Source: Chrysochromulina tobinii
Lineage: Eukaryota > Haptophyta > Prymnesiales > Chrysochromulinaceae
Assembly: GCA_001275005.1 (NCBI GenBank)
Contig: JWZX01001816.1
Location: 1-24,393 of the forward strand
DNA length: 24,393 bases
Reading direction: 5' to 3'
Below the pieces are notes generated by a model. It was not told the DNA's origin and made no database searches. It saw only the letters and a program-made list of their open reading frames with translations. Each line of letters opens with the position of its first letter. Position 1 is the stretch's first letter. The translations under genes and the position numbers were made by a program. Shown here one piece after another: positions 5,270 to 24,393 of this stretch.

Positions 5270-5889
5270 TGGCGCGCCTCCGAAGAGGCCGCCGCCAGCA
5301 GCAGCCGGCGCGCCGGGTCACATGCAAGAAATCGTCGAGCGCATTGCCTCGTGCGCTTACTTGTACTTCTCCCTCACGGGCTTCTTGCCGCCCCGAAGAG
5401 GCCGCCGCCAGCAGCAGTTGCCGCAGCGCCGCCGCCAGCGCCGAACGCTGGCGTCGCACCAGAGCCAGCGCCAAACCCAAAGCCGTTGCTTGCCGCAGCG
5501 CCGCCGCCGCCAAAGCCGTTGCTTGCCGCAGCGCCGCCGCCAAAGCCGTTGCTCGTCTTAGCGGCACAAACAGAGTCACTCGAGCCCAGGACGGCGCTCG
5601 TGCCTGTGGCACCAAACCCACCTGCCGCCGCCGTCGAGGCTGCTGGCGCACCGAAGCTATTGCTCGCGGCGAAAGCTATCGAAGTTGCCTTTGGCGGTCT
5701 AGCTTTATAGAGTCGTCGAGAAGACTCAGGCATTCCGAAAGGCATTTCAGGCATTCCAGGCATTCCCATAGCTTCGTTGAGGCTCGCCGGCGCGCCAGTT
5801 CCGGAGCCCGCGCCAAAGCTGAAGCCGGGCGGCGCTCCTGCCGGGGCAGAGGCTGAGGCTGCCGTTGCCGCCAGACTCATCGCTGGCAC
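5270..5889 (-). pseudogene. Degenerate duplicate of the FG-repeat tail
   Basis: Directly after the stop of the large fusion gene, the minus strand continues with an FG-rich open frame (in-frame ATG at 5880, stop TGA at 5374-5376). It has GFSFGAG, SNSFGAP, three SNGFGGG/SNGFGFG units, PAFGAG and a final GGGLFG. At the end, a one-base change of frame would replace the stop with a basic tail (GKKPVREKYK then TAA), similar in style to the PPKYKSYNKARR end of the main gene. At 5271-5314 a single orphan unit identical to the 36-bp GLFG repeat of the main gene remains. I read this as a duplicated and decaying tail. An alternative 3' exon or a separate small FG gene is possible. Confidence 0.45.
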
Positions 5890-8800
5890 TTAGCGCCTCG
5901 CCTTATTATACGACTTATATTTGGGTGGCGCGGCGGACGCACCAAAGCCGCCGAAGCCGCCAGGGGCCACCGATGCGGGCGCAGGAGCGGCTCCGAAACC
6001 GAAGACCGTCGCTGGTGCGGGCGCGGGCGCGGGCGCAGGCGCAGTGCCAAAGCCAAAGTGAGAGCTCGCTGCGGTCGCAGCCGGCGCGCCCCCGAAGAGG
6101 CCGCAAGCAGCAGCCGGCGCGCCCCCGAAGAGGCCGCCGCCAGCAGCAGCCGGCGCGCCCCCGAAGAGGCCGCCGCCAGCAGTAGCCGGCGCGCCTCCGA
6201 AGAGGCCGCCGCCAGCAGTAGCCGGCGCGCCTCCGAAGAGGCCGCCGCCAGCAGCAGCCGGCGCGCCCCCGAAGAGGCCGCCGCCAGCAGCAGCCGGCGC
6301 GCCTCCGAAGAGGCCGCCGCCAGCAGCAGCCGGCGCGCCCCCGAAGAGGCCGCCGCCAGCAGCAGCCGGCGCGCCCCCGAAGAGGCCGGCAGCTAGCGCC
6401 CGGGCGCCTCCGAAGATGGGCGTCGCGGCCGCAAGAGCTGGTGCGGCAGCAAACGTAGGTCCCGAGGGCGACGAGGAGCTGCCCATCAAGGACCCCATCA
6501 AGGACGGCTGGCGGCCACAGGCAGGTGTGCTGGCCCCCATCCCGATAGATCCCATCCCCTTTACGAGAGTGTCCCTATCTTTCGATGTCAGCTGGCCGCA
6601 GTCCTCGATGGTCATGCGCATCTTGGTGGTGGGCGTGCCAGTGGCGGCCAACGCGGCCATCGCCTCGACGAGAGGCAGGCCCTCGACGACGCGCCCGAAG
6701 ACAACGTGCTTGCCGTTGAGGTGTGGCAGCGCGTCGAGCGTGATGAAGAACTGCGAGCCGTTGCCATCGCGCCCGCTATTGGCCATCGAGAGCAGCCCTT
6801 TGCGGTCATGCGGGATCGCAAACGACTCATCTTCAAACGTCTTGCCGTAAATGGACTCGCCGCCGCGCCCGTCGCCATAGGTGATGTCGCCGCCTTGCAC
6901 AATCTGGCCGGGAACGATCCGATGCATGCGGCTCCCCTTGAAGTGCAACGGCGGGTTCCCAAAATGGAACTTGCATGCGCCGGCCTCGCCCGTGCACAGG
7001 GCGCGGAAGTTGTCCGCGGTGCGCGGCACCGCATCGGCAAAGAGCTCGATGATGACTCGAGGGGAGGGCGGCCCCCACGGCCCCTCTTCCGCCCACGGCC
7101 GCCCCGCCTCCGCCGGTGCATCAACGGCGAGGCACGAGAATCGCAGCCAGACTTTTGGATTGGCCGCGCGCACGCGGCTGTGGCGCAGGCAGCGCGCACG
7201 CACACCCTCCCAAAACGGTCCGCCCACGTCGCGCCCGACACTCAGATCCGCCTCCCCCTCCCTCCACGCCACTTCCGCAAGCACGGGGAGCCTTGCCTCC
7301 TTCCCCGGCGATAAGAACCCGATCCCTGGCGGCGTCGCCGGAATTGCATCGCCGCGCTCCCGCGCCTCCCACGCCGCCGTTGCATGCCGCAGCAGTGCCA
7401 CGAGCGCCTCGGCGGCGGCGGCACCGTCGCCTGCCTTCTTCGCAGCGTCCGTCGCGACACTCAGCGCCGTCGAACCCTTGGCGGTGGTGCGCGTGGGGTC
7501 GGCACGGGCGTGGAGCAAAGCGGCCACGATTGGTGCGCTGCCCTGCCGCGCGGCCAAGATGAGCGGCGCTGCACCCTGCGGCTGTGTCGCGAGCACGTCC
7601 ACCGCGGCGCCCGCCTCCAAGAGGCGCACAACCGCCTCGCCTTCGGCTGCGTCCGCCGCCCAATGCAGCGCCGTCCAGCCCTTGCGATCCGCATGCGTGA
7701 GCGCGGCGCCCTCGGCGAGCGATCGCGTGATGGAGACCGCGTCGCCGCGCGCTGCCGCATCGAGTAGCCGATCGTCCGCCGTCGCCACCACCTGCTCGAC
7801 CGTTAGCTCGAAGCACAGCGTCGCGTTGGGGGCAATCTTGGGCGGCTTGCCTTTGGTGCCATACGCGAGCGCCGGCGGGATGGTTACGAAGGCCGTCTGG
7901 CCGAGCGCCACGTGAGGGAGGACAATGTCCCAAGCGCTGATCACCTGCCCTCGCCCCACGCGCACGTAGAGGGGCTCCCCCGCCGGCGACGCGTCGAAGA
8001 CAGCCCCAGAGCGATCCACCGCGCCGCCCTCGCCGCCGCCGCCGCCCTTGCCGCCGCCACTGCTCGTGCCAGGCAGCCGGCCGACGAATTGGACGGCCAC
8101 CGTCTGCCCCTCTGCCGCGTACACGGGCGGCGTGGTTGATGGTGCTGAGAGCAGCTGCACCCGCAGCCCGAGCGCTTCCCACGAGGCCACCGGGAATCTC
8201 TGAGCTAGGTTGGCGGCCATGAAGACCGCGGCGGCGGGCGCAGCGTCGGCGGTGGCGGCGGGCGCAGCGTCGGCGGCGGCGGGTGGCGCAGCGGCTTGGG
8301 CCACTGTGGAGGCCGCTGTGGAGGAGGCGGCAGCAGAGGTGGCCGCGACGGCCACCTTTGGTGCAGGCAGCTTGGCTGCCGCCTCGGTGAGCTGCTTGAT
8401 GACGCGCGCGAAGCGTAGCTTTTCTTCGGCGTCAACCTTCGGCTCCTTCTCCTGCGCCGCCTTGAGGGCAGTGTTCCCCTTGGCCGTCGTCCGGCGCACA
8501 TCCGCACCACCCGCGAGGAGGAGGGGCACGCAATCATCCCACCCAAAGCTCGCGGCAAAGATGAGCGGCGTGATGCCAGTCTTCTCCATGGCGGCGTCCA
8601 CGGGTGCGCCCGCCTTGATCAGTTCCTTGACATCATCGGGGCGGCCGCACTTGGCCGCCCAGTGCAGCGCCGTGTGATTCTTCTCGTCCTTGGCGGCCAC
8701 GTCAGCCCCCTCGCGCAGCGCCTTGAGCAGCACGTCGTGGTCACCTAACTCCGCCGCCGAGAGCAAATCGTCCGTGGCCTTCTTCACGGCTGCCGCCGAA

Positions 8801-10803
8801 GGCTTGGCCGATTCTGCAGGCTTGGCAGCCGCGGCCGGTGCGGACGCTGGAGGAGGCGCCGCGGCGGGCGCAGGCGGCGGGGAGGCCGCAACCGGCGTGG
8901 GCGATGAAATGGTGGGCTTTGGCGCGTGCGCGGCTCCGAAGGAGAACGGAGCTGCGGTCTGGGCGGGAGCGGCGGGAGCAGAGGCCGCGAGGCCAAAGCT
9001 GAATCCGACTTCCGCTGGGGCGAGCGAAGGGCCAGCGGGAGGCTTGCTTGCCTCTCCGCCTGCGGCCTCCTCCTCGTCGTCCTCCTCGTCGTCGCCTAGC
9101 TTGATGGCGTTTGCCTTGCCCATCGCTCCAAGCGCCTTGCGCACCGGTTCGAGATCCTTGTCGAGGTCCTCGTCGAGCATGACGCGCTCGACCTGCGCCT
9201 TGCCCGTGAGCGAAGCGCCGAGCGCCGCCGCTGAGCCCGCCTCCATGTCGTTGTTGCGTAGGTCGAGCTCCTTGAGGCCGGCGACGCTGCCGAGCGCCTT
9301 GGCGACCGCCATGCAGCCCTCCTCCTCGAGCTCGTTGCCGCTCAGACTGAGGCGCGCGAGCGTCGCGTGGCCGGCGATCGCCTTCCCGAGCACCTTCCCG
9401 CCCTCGAGCCCGAGCTCACAGTCCTCGAGGCGCAGCGTGTGCAGCGGGCAGCCGCGCACGAGCGCCACGAGCGCGTCGTTGTCGCCGAGCGCAGCGAGCG
9501 ACGAGTTCGTCAGGTCGACTTCCTCGAGCTTTGCGCAGCCGCGCAGGCTCCCGAGCACACTCGCGATCGCCTCGGCGCTTTCGAAGCGGTGGTTGACGAG
9601 CGAGATGGCCTTAAGCGAGGCGCCACACTTGCGCAGCGCCGCGCCGAGCGCCTCGGCCGCCGCGTCGCTCACCGTCGGCGTCTCGTCGCAGTCAACGGGC
9701 GCCCCGCGCAGCTCGACCTTCTCGAACGCGCGTAACGCGAGACCGGTCGAGATGCGCTCCACGTCCTTGGGCTCCCGCAGAGATAGGTCGTCGAGCTTGA
9801 AGACGGCCGCCTTGTTGGCCGCGCCAAAGGCCGCTGGCGCCGCGCTGCCTTTGGCGCCGCCGAAGGCGAACCCGGCAGCCGGCGCCGTGGGCATTGAGAA
9901 GCCGGCGGCAGTAGGTGTGGCGCCCGCACCAAAAGCAGCGGGAACGCCCGTGCCGAGAGCCGTAGCGGGCTTTGCGAATGAAAAGCCCCCTGTCGACGGC
10001 GCAGCGGGCGCAGCGGGCGCGGCGAATGAAAAGCCACTTGTTGCAGGCGCTGCGGCAGGTGCGGTGGGCGGCGCGGCGGCCGGTGCTGCAGGTGTTGCGA
10101 ATGAAAAGCCCCCTGTCGACGGCGCAGCGGGCGCGGCGAATGAAAAGCCACTTGTTGCAGGCGCGGCGGCAGGTGCGGTGGGCGGCGCGGCGGCCGGTGC
10201 TGCAGGTGTTGCGAATGAAAAGCCCCCTGTCGACGGCGCAGCGGGCGCAGCGGGCGCGGCGAATGAAAAGCCACTTGTTGCAGGCGCGGCGGCAGGTGCG
10301 GCGGGCGGCGCAGCAGAAGACGGGGCGGCGGATGACGCGGTGGCCTGAGTGGGAGTGACGACGGCGGCAGGAGCGGCAGTACGGGCTGCGACCGGTGAGG
10401 CTAGCGCTCTGATCGTCTTATCGAAGCGCAGCCGTTCCTCCGCATCGGCTTTAGCCGCCTTCTCCTGCGCAGCCTGCAGCGCCGTACGGCCCTTGTTGGT
10501 CGACATCGCAATGTCCGCACCAGCCTGAAGGAGGATCGGCACACAGTCGTCCCATCCTTCGGACGCGGCGTAAATGAGCGCTGTGACGCCCGCCTTAGTG
10601 GCCGTATTCACCGAGGCGCCCGCCTCGAGCAGTGCTTTCAAATCGTCAGGGCGCCCGCACCTGGCGGCCCAGTGCAGCGCAGTCATCGACTTGTCGTCCG
10701 TCGCACTCACATCGCCGCCCTCCTTCAACGCCTTGAGCAGCGCCTCGTGGTCGCCCATCTCCGCGGCGGAGAGCAGATCGAGGGTGGACTTTGAGTGCGG
10801 CAT
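5890..10803 (-). CDS. Ankyrin-FG-LRR-FKBP-cyclophilin-GLFG fusion, nucleoporin-like
   Basis: This is a 1637-residue protein in one uninterrupted frame; the open frame begins upstream at 10914 but the first ATG is at 10803. Order of parts: ankyrin block 5-135; Ala/Pro-rich segment with six FSFA motifs and a few FG motifs, 170-335; RNI-type leucine-rich repeats about 355-560 (e.g. LKELDLRNNDM), followed by an acidic run 570-579 as in RanGAP; FG segment 598-625; second ankyrin block 675-808, closely similar to the first; FKBP domain 893-1006 with FKBP12-equivalent Phe936, Asp937, Val954-Ile955, Trp958, Tyr981 and Phe998 and a Gly-rich insert; third ankyrin block 1008-1140; cyclophilin 1215-1405 with catalytic-type Arg1295 (HRI) and NGSQFF; nine GLFG repeats 1472-1572; basic tail. 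GLFG repeats are typical of nuclear-pore proteins. A role at the nuclear pore, coupling a Ran-GAP-like fold and prolyl isomerases, is inference. Confidence 0.85.
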   Translation of the reverse strand: MPHSKSTLDLLSAAEMGDHEALLKALKEGGDVSATDDKSMTALHWAARCGRPDDLKALLEAGASVNTATKAGVTALIYAASEGWDDCVPILLQAGADIAMSTNKGRTALQAAQEKAAKADAEERLRFDKTIRALASPVAARTAAPAAVVTPTQATASSAAPSSAAPPAAPAAAPATSGFSFAAPAAPAAPSTGGFSFATPAAPAAAPPTAPAAAPATSGFSFAAPAAPSTGGFSFATPAAPAAAPPTAPAAAPATSGFSFAAPAAPAAPSTGGFSFAKPATALGTGVPAAFGAGATPTAAGFSMPTAPAAGFAFGGAKGSAAPAAFGAANKAAVFKLDDLSLREPKDVERISTGLALRAFEKVELRGAPVDCDETPTVSDAAAEALGAALRKCGASLKAISLVNHRFESAEAIASVLGSLRGCAKLEEVDLTNSSLAALGDNDALVALVRGCPLHTLRLEDCELGLEGGKVLGKAIAGHATLARLSLSGNELEEEGCMAVAKALGSVAGLKELDLRNNDMEAGSAAALGASLTGKAQVERVMLDEDLDKDLEPVRKALGAMGKANAIKLGDDEEDDEEEAAGGEASKPPAGPSLAPAEVGFSFGLAASAPAAPAQTAAPFSFGAAHAPKPTISSPTPVAASPPPAPAAAPPPASAPAAAAKPAESAKPSAAAVKKATDDLLSAAELGDHDVLLKALREGADVAAKDEKNHTALHWAAKCGRPDDVKELIKAGAPVDAAMEKTGITPLIFAASFGWDDCVPLLLAGGADVRRTTAKGNTALKAAQEKEPKVDAEEKLRFARVIKQLTEAAAKLPAPKVAVAATSAAASSTAASTVAQAAAPPAAADAAPAATADAAPAAAVFMAANLAQRFPVASWEALGLRVQLLSAPSTTPPVYAAEGQTVAVQFVGRLPGTSSGGGKGGGGGEGGAVDRSGAVFDASPAGEPLYVRVGRGQVISAWDIVLPHVALGQTAFVTIPPALAYGTKGKPPKIAPNATLCFELTVEQVVATADDRLLDAAARGDAVSITRSLAEGAALTHADRKGWTALHWAADAAEGEAVVRLLEAGAAVDVLATQPQGAAPLILAARQGSAPIVAALLHARADPTRTTAKGSTALSVATDAAKKAGDGAAAAEALVALLRHATAAWEARERGDAIPATPPGIGFLSPGKEARLPVLAEVAWREGEADLSVGRDVGGPFWEGVRARCLRHSRVRAANPKVWLRFSCLAVDAPAEAGRPWAEEGPWGPPSPRVIIELFADAVPRTADNFRALCTGEAGACKFHFGNPPLHFKGSRMHRIVPGQIVQGGDITYGDGRGGESIYGKTFEDESFAIPHDRKGLLSMANSGRDGNGSQFFITLDALPHLNGKHVVFGRVVEGLPLVEAMAALAATGTPTTKMRMTIEDCGQLTSKDRDTLVKGMGSIGMGASTPACGRQPSLMGSLMGSSSSPSGPTFAAAPALAAATPIFGGARALAAGLFGGAPAAAGGGLFGGAPAAAGGGLFGGAPAAAGGGLFGGAPAAAGGGLFGGAPATAGGGLFGGAPATAGGGLFGGAPAAAGGGLFGGAPAAACGLFGGAPAATAASSHFGFGTAPAPAPAPAPATVFGFGAAPAPASVAPGGFGGFGASAAPPKYKSYNKARR
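6070..6405 (-). repeat. 36-bp minisatellite encoding GLFG repeats
   Basis: About nine head-to-tail units of 36 bp (12 residues, GLFGGAPAAAGG) make up the GLFG domain. Copies differ by only a few bases (GCC/ACC and CTC/CCC variants), which suggests recent expansion or concerted evolution. The array is frame-neutral, since each unit is a multiple of three. Confidence 0.9.
9974..10313 (-). repeat. 114/123-bp minisatellite encoding FSFA repeats
   Basis: Units begin at 9974, 10097 and 10211 (plus-strand GCGAATGAAAAGCCCCCTGT), giving periods of 123 and 114 bp. They encode 41- and 38-residue units containing GGFSFA and SGFSFA. The 9-bp difference is one in-frame loss of three residues (AAP). Confidence 0.9.
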
Positions 10804-11775: not shown

Positions 11776-12835
11776 GAGTGCGCGCCAAGGACGCTCGGTA
11801 TGCGCAGCTGCTAGACGAGGCGTTGGAGCGCTTCGAGCGCACAAGGGCGAAGGGGCAGGCCGGCGAGGGTGGCGTGGGAAGCGGTGGTGACTCCGACGAC
11901 GGCGACGACAGTGATGAAGAGAGCACCACTAGCGAAGGGCGAAGAACAGGGCAGGGTGTCCATCCGTCTCCAGAAGGAGGCCCTGCGTAAAGCGCGCCTC
12001 GCCGGCCTCCGCGGCTACTGGCGCAGCCCGTCGCGGAGCAGGCGATGAGCGGCCGACCGCTTGCCTTGCCGAGTGCCACGGGAGCAAGGCCTCGCTCTGG
12101 CAGGCGAGCACCGCTGCGGGCGCACAGAGGTCACCCTGCCCCTGCATGACGAGGCGATGGTGCACAGAGGTCACCCTGCCCCTGCATGACGAGGCGATGG
12201 TGTCGCCGATCTCCGCAGTGCCGTGGGCGGTCACGCTGTGGCGCGATCTGCCGGAGGAGGTGCTGCGAAGGGCGAAGAACAGGGCAGGGTGTCCATCCGT
12301 CTCCAGAAGGAGGCCCTGCGTAAAGCGCGCCTCGCCGGCCTCCGCGGCTACCGGCGCAGCCCGTCGCGGAGCAGGCGATGAGCGGCCGACTGCTTGCCGA
12401 GTGCCACGGGAGCAAGGCCTCGCTCTGGCAGGCGAGCACCGCTGCGGGCGCACGGAGGTCACCCTGCCCCTGCATGACGAGGCGATGGTGTCGCCGATCT
12501 CCGCAGTGCCGTGGGCGGTCACGCTGTGGCGCGATCTGCCGGAGGAGGTGCTGCTTGCTGCAACGGAGCACCTGCACAGCTGTGTCGTGCACGCGGGAGT
12601 GAGCAAGGAGGGGCACGTTGCATGGTTCGCAACGTGGGGCGAGGGCGAGCAGGCGGCCGCGTTCGATGCCGAACATTGCGCACTGAAGCCACTCTTTGAC
12701 GAGCTGCGCGCGCAGGGCTTGGAGATCCACGTGATCTCGGGCGTCGGCTATCCGACGCCTGTCTTCACGCTGGCGGAGGTGGAGGCGCTCGCTACGGACC
12801 TCTCGTGCGTAGTTGAGCCTCCCGCGTCCCTCTGA
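11772..12835 (+). CDS. Unknown protein, probably multi-exon, disrupted by a tandem duplication
   Basis: I do not recognise this gene. Three plus-strand segments look coding by composition but are in different frames: an acidic segment from an ATG at 11772 (DARYAQLLDEALERFERTRA, then a D/E/S/G-rich run); a basic segment at about 11938-12048 (GRVSIRLQKEALRKARLAGL); and the terminal segment to the TGA at 12833-12835 (EVTLPLHDEAMVSPIS, DLPEEVL, then AWFATWGEGEQ and LEIHVISGVGYPTPVFTLAE). Introns may join them, but I could not place the splice sites. The middle part is duplicated in tandem, keeping the frame (offset 333), and reading straight through gives unnatural sequence. The last 280 bases or so are the most trustworthy part. 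The gene could be functional with introns, or broken. Confidence 0.35.
11933..12553. repeat. 333/288-bp direct tandem duplication with nested 40-bp duplication
   Basis: Copy 1 (11933-12265) and copy 2 (12266-12553) are nearly identical apart from a few substitutions. Copy 1 is 45 bases longer because of a 5-base insertion near 12065 and a nested 40-bp duplication (12121-12160 repeated at 12161-12200, beginning GCACAGAGGTCACCCTGCCC). High identity suggests a recent event. Confidence 0.9.
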
Positions 12836-15273: not shown

Positions 15274-17403
15274 TCAGCCGCTCGCGCACACCTGCAGGCA
15301 CTGGATCGCGCAAGCGGCCTCGCACTTGAGCTGTCGCTCATCCCCATCCACCATCTCCTCCACCACGCCGACTCCCATGCCCTTACGCAGGCCGCTGTCG
15401 GCGCCCGGGACGGCGCTCTTTGCGCACACGTCGGCGCACCCGTTGACGCACCGCATCGAGCAAGGGAGCGAGAGGTGCCGCGCCGCCGCCGCCGCCGAGC
15501 AACTGCCGTCGCTCTGCTCGGCGCCTGGAAAGCAAGCACATGTGCCATTATGGCACCAGCCAGCTCCATGGCATTCGTCGGCGCATTGACGAAGAGAGCA
15601 GTCGTCGCCCTCCCATCCGGCCTCGCACAGGCAGGCATGCTCACCGGGCGCGCCCGCAGGCACGCACTGCCCGTGCGCCCCGCAGCCCGTCGGCCCACAG
15701 CCGAAGCGCTCGCATGCATCGCCCGACCACGGCACGGCGCATGCACACCTACCATCGTCTTGGCAACGGCCGTGGCCAGAGCACTCGACACAGCCCGAGG
15801 GACCGCATATGCGCCCGCCATCGGCGCTCGTCGAGCCTGGGCAGGAGCGCAGCTCGCAGCCGACGCCGCGCCAACCGCTCTCACACCGACAGAGCGCCTG
15901 AGGCTGCGCGCCCGTCGCGGCGGCACCGATTGGGGATGAGAGGCTTGCCTTCTCACACGAGCCGTGGCCGGAGCAGTTGTGCAAGCATGCCGGCAGCGCG
16001 CAGTCGACGCCAAACCAGCCGGGCGCGCACGTGCACGTGCCATCGGCACCGCAGTGCCCGTGCCCCGAGCATGCGCTCTCGCACGCACGACTCGAGCAGT
16101 CGAAGCTGCGCCAGCCGTCCGCACAGACGCACCGCCCGTTGAGGCATTCGCCGTGGCCGCTGCAGACGAGACCCGCGCTCACCGGCTTGACGGCGAAGAG
16201 GCGCTCGCGATCCGACCAGACCGAGGCGTCCTCGTCCACGCCCGCGTCGCCCACTGGACACTCGCGCTCCGCGCAGTGCGCGCCGCCCCAGCCAGCGTCG
16301 CACGTGCAGGTACCGTTGGCGCACCGGCCGTGCGAGCCGCACCCACCAGGGCACGAGAGGAGGGTGCAGCCGAGGGCAAGGCCGGTGCGCCCAGGGGCGC
16401 ACGCGCACGCGCCATCGTAGCACACCTGGTGCTCCCCACAGCCGCCGATGCACCCTCGCTCGGAGCAGTCGGAACCACCCCACCCGTCGTCGCACAGGCA
16501 TTCGTGTGCCGAGCATCGCCCATGCCCCGAGCAGCCCGCTGCGCAGTGGGCAACCTCACAGAGAAGCCCATCGAAGCCGTCGGCGCAGTAGCATGCGCCA
16601 TCGACGCACACGCCGTGCAGCCCGCAGCCGGGCGGCGCGCACGTACGCGTCGCGCAGTCGTCGCCACCCCAGCCCTCTTCGCACTGGCACCGGCGGCCGG
16701 GACTTCCATAGCCCAAGCACCGGCCGTGGCCGCTGCAGCCGCCAGGGCACGCGAGCTCCGAGCAGTCGACGCCGCCGTAGCCCGGCGCACACGTGCACGT
16801 GCCGTTCTCGCCGCATCGGCCACGCCCGAAGCAGTCGCGTGCGCACGCGCGCTGCTCGCAGGCGACGCCCTGCCAGCCGCCCGCGCACTGGCATGTGCCG
16901 TTGACGCACATGCCGTTGCCGGAGCAGTCGGCCGCAGGCGAGCACACGCGCTGCTCACAGCCGTCACCATTCCAACCAGGATCGCACTGGCACGTGTGAT
17001 CCGGTTTGCACACGCCGCGCCCGGAGCATCCCGCCGGGCACACGATCTCGCCGCAGTCGGCACCGCCAAAGCCAGCGTCGCAATGGCACCGCTTGGCACC
17101 GGCGCCGGCATCGACGCACACGCCGTGGCCGTTGCAATCGTGCGGGCAGGTGGGCACGGAGCACCTCGCGCCGCTCCAGGCCGGCTCGCACAGGCAGACG
17201 GCGGTCACATTGGGCGAGCACGGCAGCGCCTGCGGCCGACTGAGCGTCGCAGCGTCACGGCAGGCGCCATGGCCATTGCAGCGATCGACTTCGTCGCATG
17301 CCCTAGCGAGCGCCTTCTCAGTGGGCTTCGCACATGGGAATAGCGGGCGGATGGCCGCGGCGGTGTGGATGAGCAGGGAGAAGACCCTCATCCGCAACTC
17401 CAT
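15274..17403 (-). CDS. Secreted multi-EGF (tenascin/teneurin-type) protein
   Basis: A 709-residue protein starting at the ATG at 17403. The N-terminus (MRVFSLLIHTAAAIRPLFPC from Met5) looks like a signal peptide. It is followed by 16 cysteine-rich EGF-like units, about residues 30-640, most with the pattern C-x-GHG-x-C-x-C-x-GW-x-G-x-C seen in tenascin-type EGF repeats (e.g. CSGHGRC, CQCEEGWGGDDC). Units 11, 13 and 14 contain longer inserts. The last 70 residues hold extra cysteines (LPCSMRCVNGCADVC, CEAACAIQCLQVC) that do not fit an EGF pattern. No transmembrane helix or GPI-type end was seen, so secretion to the surface or cell wall is the simplest reading. Partner and function are unknown; adhesion or matrix roles are only inferred from the family. 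Confidence 0.85.
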   Translation of the reverse strand: MELRMRVFSLLIHTAAAIRPLFPCAKPTEKALARACDEVDRCNGHGACRDAATLSRPQALPCSPNVTAVCLCEPAWSGARCSVPTCPHDCNGHGVCVDAGAGAKRCHCDAGFGGADCGEIVCPAGCSGRGVCKPDHTCQCDPGWNGDGCEQRVCSPAADCSGNGMCVNGTCQCAGGWQGVACEQRACARDCFGRGRCGENGTCTCAPGYGGVDCSELACPGGCSGHGRCLGYGSPGRRCQCEEGWGGDDCATRTCAPPGCGLHGVCVDGACYCADGFDGLLCEVAHCAAGCSGHGRCSAHECLCDDGWGGSDCSERGCIGGCGEHQVCYDGACACAPGRTGLALGCTLLSCPGGCGSHGRCANGTCTCDAGWGGAHCAERECPVGDAGVDEDASVWSDRERLFAVKPVSAGLVCSGHGECLNGRCVCADGWRSFDCSSRACESACSGHGHCGADGTCTCAPGWFGVDCALPACLHNCSGHGSCEKASLSSPIGAAATGAQPQALCRCESGWRGVGCELRSCPGSTSADGGRICGPSGCVECSGHGRCQDDGRCACAVPWSGDACERFGCGPTGCGAHGQCVPAGAPGEHACLCEAGWEGDDCSLRQCADECHGAGWCHNGTCACFPGAEQSDGSCSAAAAARHLSLPCSMRCVNGCADVCAKSAVPGADSGLRKGMGVGVVEEMVDGDERQLKCEAACAIQCLQVCASG

Positions 17404-17603
17404 ATGGGCGCTTATCACGGCGCGCTGGATCTACGGCGCGAAAGTTCTCCTCACAGCTGAGCAGCCGAGGCGCGATGTCGGCGTTAATGAATCATTTCGG
17501 TAACTTTCTTGGACGTCTCCCGAGCTCGTAGGCCAGCTCCGTCTCCGTCGGGCTGCCCCTGTGCGCGTTCTTGACGGAGCGGCTGCCCAAACCGAGAGCA
17601 ACG
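17404..17603. promoter_or_regulatory. Divergent promoter region between EGF and SecA genes
   Basis: The two genes are transcribed away from each other from this 200-base gap, so it must hold both promoters unless transcription starts are far away. I see no TATA box. GCGCGAAA at 17436-17443 fits an E2F-like consensus on the opposite strand, but such 8-mers are expected by chance in GC-rich DNA. Confidence 0.35.
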
Positions 17604-19702
17604 ATGATCAACGTCCTGCTGACTGTGCTCAGCTACCAGCTGCCACGGCTGCTAGTGCCGACGCCGCACTTCTGCCGGACCGCCAGCTCCACGGCTGCCA
17701 CCGTCGCTGCTGTCGGCCCCCGCTGCGAGCCGCCGGCCATGGCGCTGCTGGACACGCTGATGCGCCGTGGGGTGGAGGATGAGACGGAGGTGAACAATGC
17801 GTACTTCAACACCAAGGCCAATAACGCGCGCATCGCAAAGTACAAGGAGCGCGTCGAGCGCATCAACGCGCTCGAGGACTCTATCGAGGCGCTCGACGAC
17901 GAGGAGCTCGCGGCCAAGACAGCCGAGTTCCGCAAGCGGCTCGCAAGCGGCGCAAGCGAGGAGGAGCTGCTCGAGGAGGCCTTCGCCGTCGTGCGCGAGG
18001 CCGCATGGCGCACGCTCGAGCTGCGCCATTACGACGTGCAACTGATCGGTGCGATGGCGCTGCACGACGGCACGCTCGCGCAGATGGGGACGGGTGAGGG
18101 TAAGACGCTCGCGAACACGTGCGCCGTGTACCTGAACGCGCTGCGCGGCAAGGGTGCGCACCTGGTGACCGTCAACGACTACCTCGCGCGCCGCGACGCC
18201 GAGCAGATGGGCCAGGTGTATGCCTTCCTCGGCCTGAGCGTCGGTCTGGTCCAGAGTGGCCTCTCGCCCGAGCAGGTAGGATCGCCTTGATGACCTCTGA
18301 TGACCTCTGAGGACCTCTGATGACCGAGCAGGTAAGAGCAGGTAAGAGTGCCTCTCCTCCACCATGATGACCTCTGATGACCAGGTGAGATCGCCTTCCT
18401 CATGCCTCGCGCGCGCATGCCTCTCGCACGAGCAGCGGCGCGCCGCGTACGCGTGCGACGTCACGTACGTGACGAACTCGGAGCTGGGCTTCGACTACCT
18501 TCGTGACCACCTCGCGATGACGCCGGCGGAGGTGGTGCTGCGACCGGAGGGCCTCGGCTACTGCGTGATCGACGAGGGTGATTCGGTCCTCATTGACGAG
18601 GCGCGCGTGCCGCTCATCATCAGCGGCAAGACCGATGCCTCCGTCGCACAGTACGTGATCTAGTGTGACCGAGTGCGACCGAGTGGGCCTGCTTGCCACT
18701 GAATTCGACTGCTTGCCACGCAGGTACGCGACCGCCTCTAAGCTAGCGAACTCGCTGCTGCCCACGGAGCACTACACTGCCGACGAGAAAATGATGACTG
18801 TCGCTCTGACCGAGAAGGGCACCGCCTATGCCGAGGCAGCGCTACAGGTCAAGGATCTCTTCAACCCGCAGCAGCCGTGGGCGGCGTACGTGACGAACGC
18901 CATCAAGGCGCGAGAGCTCTTCGCCAAAGACAAGGCATACATCGTCAAGGACGGCGAGGCGCTCATCATTGACGAATTCTCGGGGCGCGTCATGGCGGGT
19001 CGCCGCTGGGGCGATGGGCTCCATCAGGCCATCGAGGCCAAGGAAGGGCTCACTGTGCAGGCTGAGACGGAGGTGATCGCCTCGATTACCTATCAGAGCC
19101 TCTTCCGTCGCTACGCGAAGCTCAGCGCCATGTCGGGCACTGCCTTGACCGAGGCTGAGGAGTTCTCGACCATCTATGGGCTGAGCGTCGTCGCGGTGCC
19201 TCCGGTGCTGCCACGTCAGCGGGTGGACCTGCCTAACGCTGTGTACAAGTCCGTAAAAGGCAAGTCGAGCGCGGCACTCAATGAGCTGATGGGCATGCAC
19301 CGGTCGGGTCGGCCCGTGCTCGTAGGCACTACCTCAGTCGACGCGTCGCAGGCCTTCTCGGACAAGCTCACGGCGCTCGGGGTCAAGCACGAGGTCCTGA
19401 ACGCCAAGCCCGAGTCGATTGCTCGCGAAGCTGAGATTATCGCCCAAGCGGGGCGCAAGGGTGCCGTCACCATCGCCACCAATATGGCCGGGCGCGGCAC
19501 GGATATCCTTCTGGGCGGCTCACCGAGTGCCATGGCGCGTCTGCGTGTGCGTGAGGCTCTCGCTGCCGCCGCGGGTATCGCTGTGCCGCCGGTGTCGCCC
19601 GATTTCTACCCATGCGCTCTCGATGAGGACACACTCGGATGGATTGCGGACGCGGCCAAGGCATACGTAGCCGACGCACCACCGCCCGCCGCTGCCACCA
19701 GT

Positions 19703-19748
<46 letters not shown>

Positions 19749-20776
19749 CCCTCTCAATCGCCAATGACCCGCGCCTGCAGAGCCTGGACGAGAAGCTCGC
19801 GGTGGCAGCGTCAGCGGCGGCCGTGGAAGAGGGAAGCGTGGAGGATCTCGCGCGGGAAGCCTTCGAGGCGGTACGCCAAGCCTTTGACGAGGTGCTCTCG
19901 CCCGAGCGTCAGGAGGTCGCCGAGCTGGGTGGGCTCCACGTCATCGGCACGAACCTGCACGAATCGCGCCGTATCGACGACCAGCTGCGCGGACGCTCTG
20001 GCCGGCAAGGCGACCCAGGGTCCACTCACTTCTTCCTCTCACTCGAGGATCGCATCTTCCGACTCTTTGGCGCCGATAAGGTCAAGGGGGTGCTCGACTT
20101 CCTGCGCGTCGCCGAGGACCAGCCTCTAGAGTCCGAGAAGGTGACGGAGACCGTTCAGTCAGTCCAGGACGGCGTCGAGCGCTACTACTACGAGCTGCGC
20201 AAGGGGCTCTTCGACTTCGATGAGGTGATCGCCGCGCAGCGCGAGGCGGTCTACGCGCAGCGCGACCGCGCGCTCCGGACCGACGCAGCCGCGACACTCA
20301 AGGCGCTACACGTGGCGACGGCGGCGGTGGTGAGAGACATCTTCGAGGCGAATTGGAAGGGCCGTGCCTCCGCTGATGGCGCGCTCGCCATGACGCTCGC
20401 GACGAAGCTCGGCCAGTTCTTTCCCGCGCTTGCCACTCTCGATGGGCTCGAAGGTAAGCAGCGCGCCGAGGCGGAGGCGATCGCCACCACGGCGGCCGCG
20501 GCGGCGCTCGATGCCAAGGTGGCCCAGCTGGACGGCGTACGTGCCGGTCTCGCGTACGAGTCGGCACGCTATCTCACGCTGCTCCAGACGGACAACCTGT
20601 GGAAGGCGCACATGAAGGCGATGAATTTTGTCAAGGACTTTGCCGGCCTCAAGGTGTACAACCAGCAGAAGCCGATCGACGTCTACCGCGAGGAGGGACT
20701 CAGGCTGTACGAGCGCATGCAGGTCGCCATGCGCCAGAATGTTGTCTTCTCCTTCTTTGCGTACAAGCCCAGATGA
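17604..20776 (+). CDS. secA: SecA preprotein translocase ATPase, probably plastid, three exons
   Basis: Joining exons 17604-18275, 18436-18650 and 18724-20776 gives 979 residues in frame. SecA drives proteins through the SecYE channel by ATP hydrolysis; in algae it acts at the thylakoid. Visible motifs: GTGEGKT (Walker A, about residue 162), [32 protein letters not shown] (DEAD-type motif; Gly where Val is usual), [45 protein letters not shown] and [10 protein letters not shown] near the end. The splice joins restore [13 protein letters not shown] and [12 protein letters not shown], as expected for SecA. The protein ends soon after FSFFAYKPR, without the bacterial zinc-binding tail, as in plastid forms. 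About 50 N-terminal residues, hydrophobic then Ser/Thr/Ala-rich, may be a bipartite plastid leader. An Ala/Pro and poly-Ser stretch interrupts the second half. Start at 17604 is the first ATG in the open frame. Confidence 0.93.
18276..18435 (+). other. SecA intron 1 (GT-AG), built of short repeats
   Basis: The donor is GAGCAG|GTAGGA and the acceptor is ACGAGCAG|CGG; phase 0. The intron contains a 10-bp repeat (TGATGACCTC, four or more copies) and three further donor-like sites: CAG|GTAAGA starting at 18332 and at 18342, and CAG|GTGAGA at 18385. The boundaries are supported by the restored SecA sequence across the join. Confidence 0.85.
18651..18723 (+). other. SecA intron 2 (GT-AG), 73 bp
   Basis: The donor is GCACA|GTACGTGA and the acceptor is CCACGCAG|GTACGCG. 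The interrupted codon becomes CAG, giving SVAQYATASK. Without splicing the frame meets TAG at 18661. The intron contains two internal duplications: GACCGAGTG twice and TGCTTGCCAC twice. Confidence 0.85.
19703..19747 (+). repeat. (AGC)15 microsatellite encoding poly-serine in SecA
   Basis: Fifteen AGC triplets, preceded by AGT, encode about 16 serines within an Ala/Pro-rich insert in the second ATPase half of SecA. It sits between [14 protein letters not shown] and GGLHVIGTN, where many SecA proteins have a variable loop. Confidence 0.9.
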
Positions 20777-21307: not shown

Positions 21308-24300
21308 ATGAGCATGGTACATGTAGACGAGGAAGTGGAGGAGGATGTGGTGGATGTGGTGGAGGACGTTGAGGTGGGAGATGAGGTGGAGATGAATGTG
21401 GAGGTCGTGGTCCTCGGAGACAAGTCCGAGGCGGATTGGTCTTTCAACGGGGCCAATAAGCGGCAGACGTCAGGGCGAGTTGAGGGTGGTGGTGGTGGTG
21501 GTCAGGGCAGTAGCAGCAACGTTGGGGGCAAACCGTCGACGGCTGGCGTGGAGGCAAGTGGCGAGGCGCCGCCGCCGACGCTCGCTCGCGACATGTTGCA
21601 CCACCGAGGACGCAGGCGGCTTGAGCCGGGACTCACACTCAATGACGACTCGTCTGGTGAAGACGACGGCTATCCACTTCACACGCCGATTCTCAACGGC
21701 GCCGTGGCATCTTCTAGCGCCACGCCGCTTGACGAACTCAGTGCGCTCAACGGAATTGGCGGCCTGAAGCCGCAGCAACATGCCGCCGCCCATGCCGCCG
21801 CTCATTCCCCTGCCGATGCCGCCGCCGATGCCGCCACCCATGCCGCCGCCGCCCATGCCGCCGCCCATGCCGCCGCCCACCATCCCATCCCAGCCCTCGC
21901 CGCCGCCGCCCGCCCCTCCACTACCTCCTTCGCAATGGGAGCGGCGGCCGCCGCCTCTACTGTCACTGCGAACCTGCCGCGGCCCTTAGCGTGCGCCCGT
22001 GATGGCGCCTCAAGCATCGTCGTGCACAAGGTGCGGCTGCCCCGCGAGGCGCAGGTTGGCACACGTCTTGCTCTAGACTGGGACGGTGACTGGCATGAAG
22101 GATATCTGGCAGAAACGTTCACAGAACTCGCGAGAAACGGGTCGTCCATCGACCTTTTCCGCGTGATGTATGATGACGGCCTCTCGCAAGTGCACGGCAG
22201 ACCCAACGACCCTGCTTGCTCTGTCCGCCTTGTCCTCGCCGCCGAGAGCTCTGCTGACGTCGTGGCTGAGGATTGGAGGCAGCTTCACCTCAAGTGCGTG
22301 CTCACGCATGAACGACTCGTGGAGCCAGCAAAAGGGACTTTTTGCCAGCATGTCGCCCAGTGCAATCTCGGTGCCCTGCGCTCGTACGCTGGAAAGACAT
22401 GCCCATGCTGCGGCGAACGCATACCGCGTTCCCGAGATGTGAAGCTCGACAAGAATCTGCAGATGCTACTCGAAACGCTACCCGAGAGCGTCCATGTCGT
22501 CTGGATCCGTGGCAGCTCGGAGTTCCAGCTCGAGCCACCCAGCGTGGCAGATCACCCAAGGCAGCAAGGGCAGTCCAGCTTTGACGTTGTCGATCTTGAT
22601 GAGATGGACGAGGATATGCTGTTCGGATCCAGCAACGGAACGACGGTGGTTCGCGCTGTGGATGGGCCATTGCGGCGGGGGGGCGCCGTCACGAGCACTC
22701 TGGACGAGCCAATGCGGCGTGGGACGCGCAAGCGGCCCATCACAGATCGGCTGGCGATGAATCCGTTGTTTGCCCAGCCAGTGAAGCCAGTGAAACGGAA
22801 GAAAAGCTCGCAAGCAGCACCCGCTGCTCGGCCCGCTAGCAAGGAGGTGGTCGTGCTTTCCGAGGACGGCGAGGACGAGGTCAAGGCCAAGGTCAAGGCC
22901 AAGGGTAAGGCCGAGGTTGTTGACCGTAGGGCTGCCGAGGAGGATGCTGTGCTCGCAGAGGCGCAGGAGGGAGAGGAGCGAGAGGAGGAGGTGATGGCCG
23001 CAGAGTCGCAGCCGCTCACGGCGGACGAGGCCAGGGTGGCCGCGGCGGCCGAGGGGCTCGAGTTTGTGCCATCGTCTAGCAATGAGACGGGCTTCAAGGG
23101 CGTGAGCAAGACTGGGGGCAAGTACGAGGCGAAGATTTGTGTGAAAGGCAAGAAACGCTACCTCGGCACCTTTGCGACGCCGGAGGAGGCGGCCTTGTGC
23201 TACGCGAGGCACATAAAATATGGGGCGGAACGAGCGGCGGCAGAGCCGGGCGAGGAGGATGTGCTGCAAGCCGAAGAGGACTCCCTGAAGCAGATAGTTG
23301 AGCCATCGGCTGAGCCATCGAGGACCGAGGGCGCCGTTTGCACCCCACCCGGGGAGCACTCAGACGCGCAAGAGTGCGTGACAGCGAGCGAGGCCTTCGA
23401 CCTAGGAGCGGATCTTGGATGCGTCCACGGGCTGCAGACCGACGGTGATGGCTGGATCGGCTCCGTGGTGAGCGTACCGAACAGTTTCTGGCCAGGGTTT
23501 ACTGCAGGGCGCACCCCAGCCACGGTGGTGGCGATCACTCGTGAGCCCATCACCTTTGCAGACGGTGGCAGCAGTAGCGCCTACATCATCGAAGCAGAAG
23601 GACATCACTATCCAATCAAGGCAGATACACTCAGCAAGCTGCCGGTCTGCCATGAGCGGCCGTCGCAGCAGCAGCGTCTTTCGACAAACGCTCCAGCTAT
23701 ACCAGCTATACCAGCGATTAGGAGCCGAATCGAAGTCTACTGGCCTTCTCTGAACCGCTGGCAGCCGGGTCGCGTCGAAGGCTTTGATTGGCATCACCTC
23801 GTCCTGTACGACGACGGCGAATGCAGGTGGCACACACTGCATAAGAACGAGTGTTCGGATGCGTGTGGTACGAGTGCGGGCACGACTTATGATGCTGGCG
23901 GAGACGAGGTGTATAAGTGGCGAAACCAAAGCTTCTATGGCTGCTTCTGTGGCCAATCTCACGACGAGCTTCCAGAAGGATCAGGCGTTTGGGTGCAATG
24001 CGAGAGTTGCTCACGCTGGTGCCACGGCGAGTGCGCTGGCGTGGTCAGCGCAGCTGCAGCAGAGGCGCTCGAAAACTTCTCATGCCCAGTGTGTTTAGCT
24101 CGGAAGGCCGCTCCGGCTGCCAAACACCAGGGAGTCCAGCTTCACCTCTGCTCTCACGAGGCCTCGGGGTACAAGAATGTACGAGCGGTTCCCAATCGGA
24201 GTACCTTCTATGCGCTGGGCGTTCGCGGCAGCTATCTTGGATCATTCCCGACGGCAGAGGCCGCTGCGATCGCATATGCCATGCATGTCGAGGCTTGCAG

Positions 24301-24393
24301 CGAGAAGGAGCGGATGTACGCGCTCGGGTACGAGACCGTATGGATGCCAGGCGAAACCAAGACGCGCGTGAGCGACAAGCAGAAGCCCATGTA
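21308..24393 (+). CDS. SP-RING (SUMO E3-like) protein with Tudor-like, AP2 and PHD domains, 3' incomplete
   Basis: A single open frame of 1028 codons runs from the first ATG after an in-frame stop (TAG at 21281) to the window end. Parts: acidic N-terminus 7-36; Ala/His run 158-192; Tudor/agenet-like segment about 248-297 (LDWDGDWHEGYL, VMYDDG); SP-RING/Miz finger about 326-390 with Cys330, Cys346-x-His348, Cys352 and Cys365/Cys368 (CPCC); SIM-like VVDLDEMDED 427-436 and VVVLSEDGEDE 514-524; basic nuclear-localisation-like runs 470-477 and 494-499; AP2 domain 595-640 (GFKGVSKTGGKYEAKI, YLGTFATPEEAALCYARH); second Tudor/agenet-like segment 807-843 (IEVYWPSLNRWQPG, LVLYDDGE); PHD finger 878-930 (CFC, CESC, CHGEC, CPVC); second AP2 955-995 (YKNVRAVPNRSTFYAL, SYLGSFPTAEAAAIAYA). 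SP-RING proteins (Siz/PIAS) are SUMO E3 ligases; plant Siz also has a PHD. Likely a nuclear, chromatin-linked regulator. Confidence 0.88.
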   Translation, partial: MSMVHVDEEVEEDVVDVVEDVEVGDEVEMNVEVVVLGDKSEADWSFNGANKRQTSGRVEGGGGGGQGSSSNVGGKPSTAGVEASGEAPPPTLARDMLHHRGRRRLEPGLTLNDDSSGEDDGYPLHTPILNGAVASSSATPLDELSALNGIGGLKPQQHAAAHAAAHSPADAAADAATHAAAAHAAAHAAAHHPIPALAAAARPSTTSFAMGAAAAASTVTANLPRPLACARDGASSIVVHKVRLPREAQVGTRLALDWDGDWHEGYLAETFTELARNGSSIDLFRVMYDDGLSQVHGRPNDPACSVRLVLAAESSADVVAEDWRQLHLKCVLTHERLVEPAKGTFCQHVAQCNLGALRSYAGKTCPCCGERIPRSRDVKLDKNLQMLLETLPESVHVVWIRGSSEFQLEPPSVADHPRQQGQSSFDVVDLDEMDEDMLFGSSNGTTVVRAVDGPLRRGGAVTSTLDEPMRRGTRKRPITDRLAMNPLFAQPVKPVKRKKSSQAAPAARPASKEVVVLSEDGEDEVKAKVKAKGKAEVVDRRAAEEDAVLAEAQEGEEREEEVMAAESQPLTADEARVAAAAEGLEFVPSSSNETGFKGVSKTGGKYEAKICVKGKKRYLGTFATPEEAALCYARHIKYGAERAAAEPGEEDVLQAEEDSLKQIVEPSAEPSRTEGAVCTPPGEHSDAQECVTASEAFDLGADLGCVHGLQTDGDGWIGSVVSVPNSFWPGFTAGRTPATVVAITREPITFADGGSSSAYIIEAEGHHYPIKADTLSKLPVCHERPSQQQRLSTNAPAIPAIPAIRSRIEVYWPSLNRWQPGRVEGFDWHHLVLYDDGECRWHTLHKNECSDACGTSAGTTYDAGGDEVYKWRNQSFYGCFCGQSHDELPEGSGVWVQCESCSRWCHGECAGVVSAAAAEALENFSCPVCLARKAAPAAKHQGVQLHLCSHEASGYKNVRAVPNRSTFYALGVRGSYLGSFPTAEAAAIAYAMHVEACSEKERMYALGYETVWMPGETKTRVSDKQKPM
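21778..21890 (+). repeat. GCCGCCGCCCAT-type repeat encoding an Ala/His run
   Basis: A degenerate repeat of GCCGCC(GCC)CAT/GAT units. In the frame of the surrounding gene it reads Ala/His/Asp; in another frame it reads Met/Pro and on the other strand Met/Gly. The flanking conserved domains fix the Ala/His frame as the coding one. Confidence 0.8.

Follow-up and report, generated by a model that had tools for sequence, protein, structure and literature searches.

Pore anchoring of RanGAP is lineage-specific: passages in PMC11825100 describe SUMO and Nup358 in animals, the WPP domain in plants, and two yeasts whose RanGAP lacks pore localization. RanGAP itself is described as holding Ran switch II, without an arginine finger (PMC12246119, in part). 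Nup358 (RanBP2) is termed metazoan-specific in a passage of PMC4758718; an older table marks some Nup358 matches, perhaps outside animals (PMC1257468). The FCBPs, dual-family immunophilins of the form FKBP-3TPR-CYN, are known from apicomplexans, oomycetes, ciliates, diatoms and dinoflagellates, with a TPR linker in essentially all, and the word "ankyrin" is absent from the main text of their review (PMC6316441). Here we describe a predicted protein on the minus strand of a 24,393-bp contig of Chrysochromulina tobinii (JWZX01001816.1, positions 1 to 24,393; this whole stretch is called the window). We lean, with limited confidence, towards reading it as a nuclear-pore-associated algal protein with phenylalanine-glycine (FG) repeats, in which an FKBP-ankyrin-cyclophilin dual immunophilin is fused to a module of FG repeats and leucine-rich repeats (LRR). 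The initial annotation knew of no described protein with this order of parts, and the literature searched, which lay mostly outside subscription journals, yielded none.

Domain order and unity of the reading frame

The frame runs from 10914 to 5890 on the minus strand (1674 codons) and is free of internal stops. From N to C terminus the order is ankyrin, FSFA/FG, LRR with acidic tail, FG, ankyrin, FKBP, ankyrin, cyclophilin and GLFG tail:

5890..10803, minus strand: whole open frame, 1637 residues, from the likely start ATG at 10803 to TAA at 5892-5890
10393..10788, minus strand: ankyrin block 1, residues 6-137 (Pfam, sequence comparison)
9829..10383, minus strand: Ala/Pro-rich linker with GFSFA/GFSFT and few FG, residues 141-325
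9043..9828, minus strand: RNI/RanGAP-class LRR with acidic tail, residues 326-587, acidic run 571-579 (AlphaFold predicted local distance difference test, pLDDT, 87.4)
8779..9042, minus strand: second linker with two FSFG, residues 588-675
8377..8778, minus strand: ankyrin block 2, residues 676-809 (Pfam)
7798..8118, minus strand: FKBP domain, residues 896-1002 (Pfam)
7363..7782, minus strand: ankyrin block 3, residues 1008-1147 (Pfam)
6595..7059, minus strand: cyclophilin domain, residues 1249-1403 (Pfam)
5893..6567, minus strand: GLFG/FG tail, residues 1413-1637
6077..6388, minus strand: 36-bp tandem repeat encoding GLFGGAPAAAGG (8.8 copies, 96% match)
5374..5889, minus strand: FG-rich in-frame open stretch past the stop, resembling the longer tail of P0002 (below)

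Pfam matches to the 1674-residue frame above the cut-offs are Ank_2 (five stretches, E 9e-43), Pro_isomerase (E 3e-38) and FKBP_C (E 1e-16); LRR_6 (E 4e-4) and Nucleoporin_FG (E 0.008) fall below their own cut-offs. Ankyrin blocks 1 and 2 share 84 of 130 residues, against 49/112 and 52/115 for the more distant block 3, so the FG-LRR part is flanked by two copies of one ankyrin block. The FKBP domain has its best matches in plant and animal multi-FKBP proteins (2e-19), and the cyclophilin in 6lxp (2e-53). In CypA numbering, Arg1295 occupies the position of Arg55, Gln that of Phe60 and His that of Trp121; Gln or Asn stands at the Phe60 position in 20 of the 21 covering rows of alignment A2, and Phe in P0165. 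Isomerase activity is plausible, and we infer low sensitivity to cyclosporin. The AlphaFold model of the FKBP-ankyrin-cyclophilin part is of moderate quality (pLDDT 74.5, with the cyclophilin partly under 50), and its fold matches, among those listed, reflect mainly the ankyrin part.

FG dipeptides number 24 in the whole protein against 7.5 expected, and the highest of 2000 shuffles gave 16. Part-by-part shuffles confine the clear excess to the C-terminal tail (16 FG against 4.4 expected, highest of 500 shuffles 10), where the repeats, nine of them GLFG, lie in low-charge spacers as in FG nucleoporins. The middle linker has two FG (0.2 expected), a count that some shuffles reach too, and the motifs of the N-terminal stretch are for the most part GFSFA/GFSFT, a degenerate version of FxFG. 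At the DNA level the GLFG array is also a tandem repeat, and its copy number may therefore be young.

The whole architecture was sought in the best 120 of 283 proteins matching the FKBP-ankyrin-cyclophilin region, and two of the matches listed have it. P0001 (1637 residues, contig of 26901 bp) differs from the window protein by one residue; P0002 (1837 residues, another metagenome contig, 15139 bp) is 98% identical over the searched region and has the identical order throughout. The differences in both preserve the frame, linkers included. With its order recurring and its frame kept through the linkers, the stretch reads as one gene, not several. A one-chain fusion of LRR, FG/GLFG, FKBP, cyclophilin and three ankyrin blocks, as the initial annotation had it, is thus borne out by the stop-free frame, the Pfam matches, the FG counts and P0002. 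The tail of P0002 is longer than that of the window protein (11 GLFG), and positions 5374-5889 are open and FG-rich; the C terminus therefore varies, and both forms are FG-rich. An intron joining this stretch past the stop was considered. P0163 (contig of 963 bases) ends in the same final residues as the window protein, and the differing ends may reflect strain variation; the 200 bases upstream of the stop hold one match to GT[AG]NG, at 5942.

Cyclophilin relationships and the two modules

A tree was built from 47 of 49 chosen cyclophilins (P0012 and P0021 were dropped because the anchor motif was not located); its bootstrap is not fully settled, and the tested groups were named once the tree had been inspected. 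The window cyclophilin falls inside an FKBP-ankyrin-cyclophilin clade of 16 rows (100/97 support), RanBP2 cyclophilins form their own group (100/100) and other FG-cyclophilins a third (88/92). Grouping the window and P0002 cyclophilins with RanBP2 is rejected (p 3e-121), as is grouping them with the other FG-cyclophilins (approximately unbiased test, p 0.0014). The test speaks weakly against uniting every FKBP-cyclophilin type in a single clade (p 0.026), and does not reject a union of RanBP2 with the other FG-cyclophilin group (p 0.35). Besides the window protein and P0002, 20 FKBP-ankyrin-cyclophilin relatives have one to four FG each and no array; with the rejected RanBP2 grouping, this suggests that the window protein most likely gained its FG tail within its own clade, apart from RanBP2. 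The independent origin proposed initially is thus supported for the protein's own cyclophilin. The wider claim is weakened by a further test, which does not reject the entire clade as sister to RanBP2 (p 0.27) or to the other FG-cyclophilins (p 0.33).

On a different cyclophilin branch, P0044 and P0059 have the layout FG, cyclophilin, FG, LRR, acidic stretch, and are possibly the same functional combination. Against the PDB the LRR of P0044 ties between NOD2 (4e-6), RNI (1e-5) and RanGAP1 (5e-5). P0040, P0046, P0106 and P0109, seemingly outside animals, also combine a cyclophilin and FG repeats with RanBP2-type zinc fingers, the latter from precomputed Pfam; EF-hand matches are listed for P0040 too.

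Searching with the FKBP-ankyrin-cyclophilin part alone (best 120 of 437 proteins, domains from precomputed Pfam) returned all three domains in 19 of the 120 matches listed. Most of the 18 inspected start near the FKBP domain and finish soon past the cyclophilin; P0121 and P0122, on short contigs, are near copies of the window's version. The LRR search gave 17 proteins. The FG-LRR junction is repeated in P0241 (92% over the aligned part) and the LRR-acidic-ankyrin junction in P0248 (84% over the aligned part). In P0249-P0251 FG repeats lead into the LRR, and the predictions end after its first part; P0244 carries LRR plus acidic tail and no FG ahead of them. P0242 is arranged in reverse, with a cyclophilin end, FxF repeats, LRR and an acidic end, and the best matches of its first 34 residues are from the FKBP-ankyrin-cyclophilin clade (the nine best of 47). 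The window protein thus appears to join two modules found apart elsewhere, FKBP-ankyrin-cyclophilin and FG-LRR. Modules that act in a common process would be expected to occur separately and in two orders, and we infer such a partnership here. An ankyrin-linked dual immunophilin family, joined to an FG-LRR module in two orders, is the wider finding from these comparisons.

In P0129 a cyclophilin 82% identical to that of the window precedes a tail of another kind, with MORN repeats. A pattern scan of viral contigs with P0132 gave seven pattern matches and no relative.

The LRR domain and host Ran and pore genes

The LRR part is predicted to form an RNI-like solenoid, with an acidic tail C-terminal to it (residues 571-579); the hhalign alignment reaches rna1p residue 343. 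Asn433 is aligned to rna1p Asn131 at 55% probability, Asn being common at this LRR position, and Thr377 is aligned to Arg74. Best single-domain scores with rna1p are 39.3 bits for P0245, 33.8 for P0243, 33.7 for P0244, 28.4 for P0242 and 27.1 for P0246; 16.7 for P0247, 16.1 for P0241 and 15.5 for P0252; and 5.5 for P0002, 4.5 for P0250, 3.8 for P0001, 3.6 for P0249, 2.9 for P0251 and 2.7 for P0248. The controls, five generic LRR proteins (12-24 bits) and eight LRR loci of the host's own genome (30-38 bits; frames cut out by script), overlap these values, so the score does not decide RanGAP identity. In alignment reach, the best-domain alignments of all thirteen controls end at or before rna1p residue 319, and those of P0242-P0245 extend to 349-366, of P0248 to 366 and of P0059 to 343. 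The contrast is weaker with hhalign: matches reach family column 218 for rna1p, 189-190 for the five generic proteins and 175-207 for six of the own-genome loci, and the other two, represented by their longest frame, lack a real match. A profile comparison of RanGAP with RNI repeats had been proposed initially; it supports an RNI/RanGAP-class fold with C-cap and acidic tail and gives no preference for RanGAP, which ties with RNI, NLR and generic repeats. The RanGAP link of the LRR is only suggestive.

Own-genome searches covered the 53-Mb assembly of 2253 contigs to which the window belongs; it is incomplete, and the search went by single exons. With 58 places matching light-harvesting proteins, the host is an alga; the light-harvesting protein itself matched nothing but chains of a single PDB entry (E up to 1e-30). 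In the host genome FG repeats (for example SLFGGAPSPTT and GGLFGSAPAPAPA) precede a single Nup98-type domain. It also has a RanBP1 domain (E 3e-43) and a second, weaker RanBP1 domain (1e-5) behind FG repeats, a layout like that of Nup50. The window tail and FG pieces of the host Nup98 and RanBP1-type genes, picked by eye, are 73-83% Ala, Gly, Pro, Ser and Thr and 3-4% charged.

Rival readings and comparison with known systems

If the protein is pore-associated, its FG parts would place it in the pore or dock transport receptors there, the LRR solenoid and acidic tail could bind Ran or a Ran complex, and ankyrin adaptors might hold the two prolyl isomerases, whose substrates could be cargo, receptors or the proline-rich mesh of FG repeats. 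The protein would then work like the animal RanBP2/RanGAP1 assembly, yet is no RanBP2. Several observations weigh against this. No domain anchoring to the nuclear pore complex was recognised by Pfam in the frame, the N-terminal "FG" stretch is not above chance (2 FG against 1.6 expected), nor is P0242 (3 against 2.8), and among P0249-P0251, which contain the LRR only in part, FG exceeds all shuffles only in P0250 and P0251. GC-rich genomes commonly have Ala/Pro/Gly-rich repeats. The LRR is as similar to RNI, NLR and generic host repeats as to RanGAP, rna1p gives it only 4-6 bits, and the window is absent from the 26 own-genome places found by rna1p. The FKBP-ankyrin-cyclophilin search admits only 0.55-1.75 times the query length and many contigs are short, so the modules seen apart may in part be cut or filtered sequence from longer proteins. 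An alternative is a scaffold chaperone of the cytosol or nucleus, in which clients are bound by the ankyrin, LRR and low-complexity parts of a dual immunophilin and the FG-like repeats, products of repeat expansion, have no pore role. The array-free relatives, the 36-bp DNA repeat under the GLFG array and an LRR that fits generic RNI/NLR repeats equally well are in keeping with it. We regard it as rather unlikely, since FG or FxF(A/G) repeats adjoin the same LRR in the diverged P0242 and P0249-P0251, and the tail composition is like that of host Nup98.

Within the pore reading, the LRR could be the lineage's RanGAP, built into an FG protein and anchoring Ran-GTP hydrolysis without SUMO or WPP. 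The C-cap and acidic tail that align to rna1p, an Asn tentatively aligned to Asn131, a RanGAP mechanism that needs no arginine finger (PMC12246119, in part) and the RanBP1 of the host are compatible with this, as are eight inspected loci of the 26 rna1p matches, none of which has an FTGR-type loop and acidic tail in RanGAP layout (in L013 an acidic run precedes the LRR and TGR stands at the very end). We nevertheless consider it unlikely: Thr replaces Arg74, the repeats are only about seven, the scores give RanGAP no edge over generic LRRs, and an ordinary RanGAP may be missed in an incomplete genome searched by exon, with 8 of 26 matches inspected. That the lineage welded RanGAP to a pore FG protein with a dual immunophilin, as a one-chain counterpart of RanBP2/RanGAP1 and another kind of pore anchoring, is quite unlikely; P0044 and P0059 point to something comparable in other lineages. 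Misassembly, or two neighbouring genes taken as one, could be imagined in a metagenome assembly with repeats at the locus and a variable 3' end. It is very improbable, as P0001 and P0002 repeat the order with the frame intact on contigs of their own, and P0248 and P0241 carry two of the junctions. An algal pore protein with a RanBP2-like combination, as first proposed, is partly supported.

Elsewhere in the window, a SecA gene (17571-20776, plus strand) lies in two open stretches, the second recognised by Pfam and the first by eye, perhaps with an intron; the break is near a 10-bp tandem repeat at 18288-18325. A 714-residue frame (15274-17418, minus strand) consists largely of teneurin-type EGF repeats (Pfam), 12122-12202 is an exact 40-bp tandem duplication whose neighbouring frames look repeated by eye, and an open frame at 21308-24391 (plus strand) has weak PHD, MIZ zinc-finger and AP2-like matches (Pfam).

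Compared with GLFG nucleoporins such as Nup98, the window protein shares GLFG repeats in low-charge spacers; it differs in its Ala/Pro/Gly spacers, its other folded domains and, by Pfam, in lacking the Nup98 autoproteolytic domain. With RanGAP (rna1p, RanGAP1) it shares the RNI-type fold, C-cap and acidic tail, with an Asn tentatively aligned to Asn131, and differs in having about seven repeats, Thr at the Arg74 position and a fusion to FG repeats and immunophilins. rna1p has 11 LRR repeats. Other FG-cyclophilin proteins (P0044, P0059, P0054 from the diatom Attheya and others) likewise have a cyclophilin flanked by FG repeats, and P0044 and P0059 also an LRR with acidic stretches; unlike the window protein, they have neither FKBP nor ankyrin among the Pfam matches listed.

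The likeness to FCBPs, also proteins of unicellular eukaryotes, lies in a single chain in which an FKBP domain comes first and a cyclophilin last (Pfam), with a helical-repeat adaptor between them. The window protein has ankyrin where FCBPs have the 3TPR linker (PMC6316441), and adds FG and LRR parts. It thus represents an ankyrin-linked class of dual immunophilins that goes unmentioned in the main text of that review (PMC6316441).

Like RanBP2/Nup358, the protein carries a cyclophilin and FG repeats on a single chain; like RanGAP1, the partner of RanBP2, it has an LRR with acidic tail. It differs in that the LRR is in the same chain, FKBP and ankyrin are added, the cyclophilin lies outside the RanBP2 clade, and Pfam finds in it no Ran-binding domain (PF00638; present elsewhere in the own genome), RanBP2-type zinc finger or N-terminal TPR. 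If the pore reading is true, one chain uniting a RanGAP-like LRR with FG repeats and two isomerases would add another way to bring RanGAP to the pore, and why a cyclophilin sits there would become testable by comparison. The comparison with RanBP2 drawn in the initial annotation is apt as an analogy.
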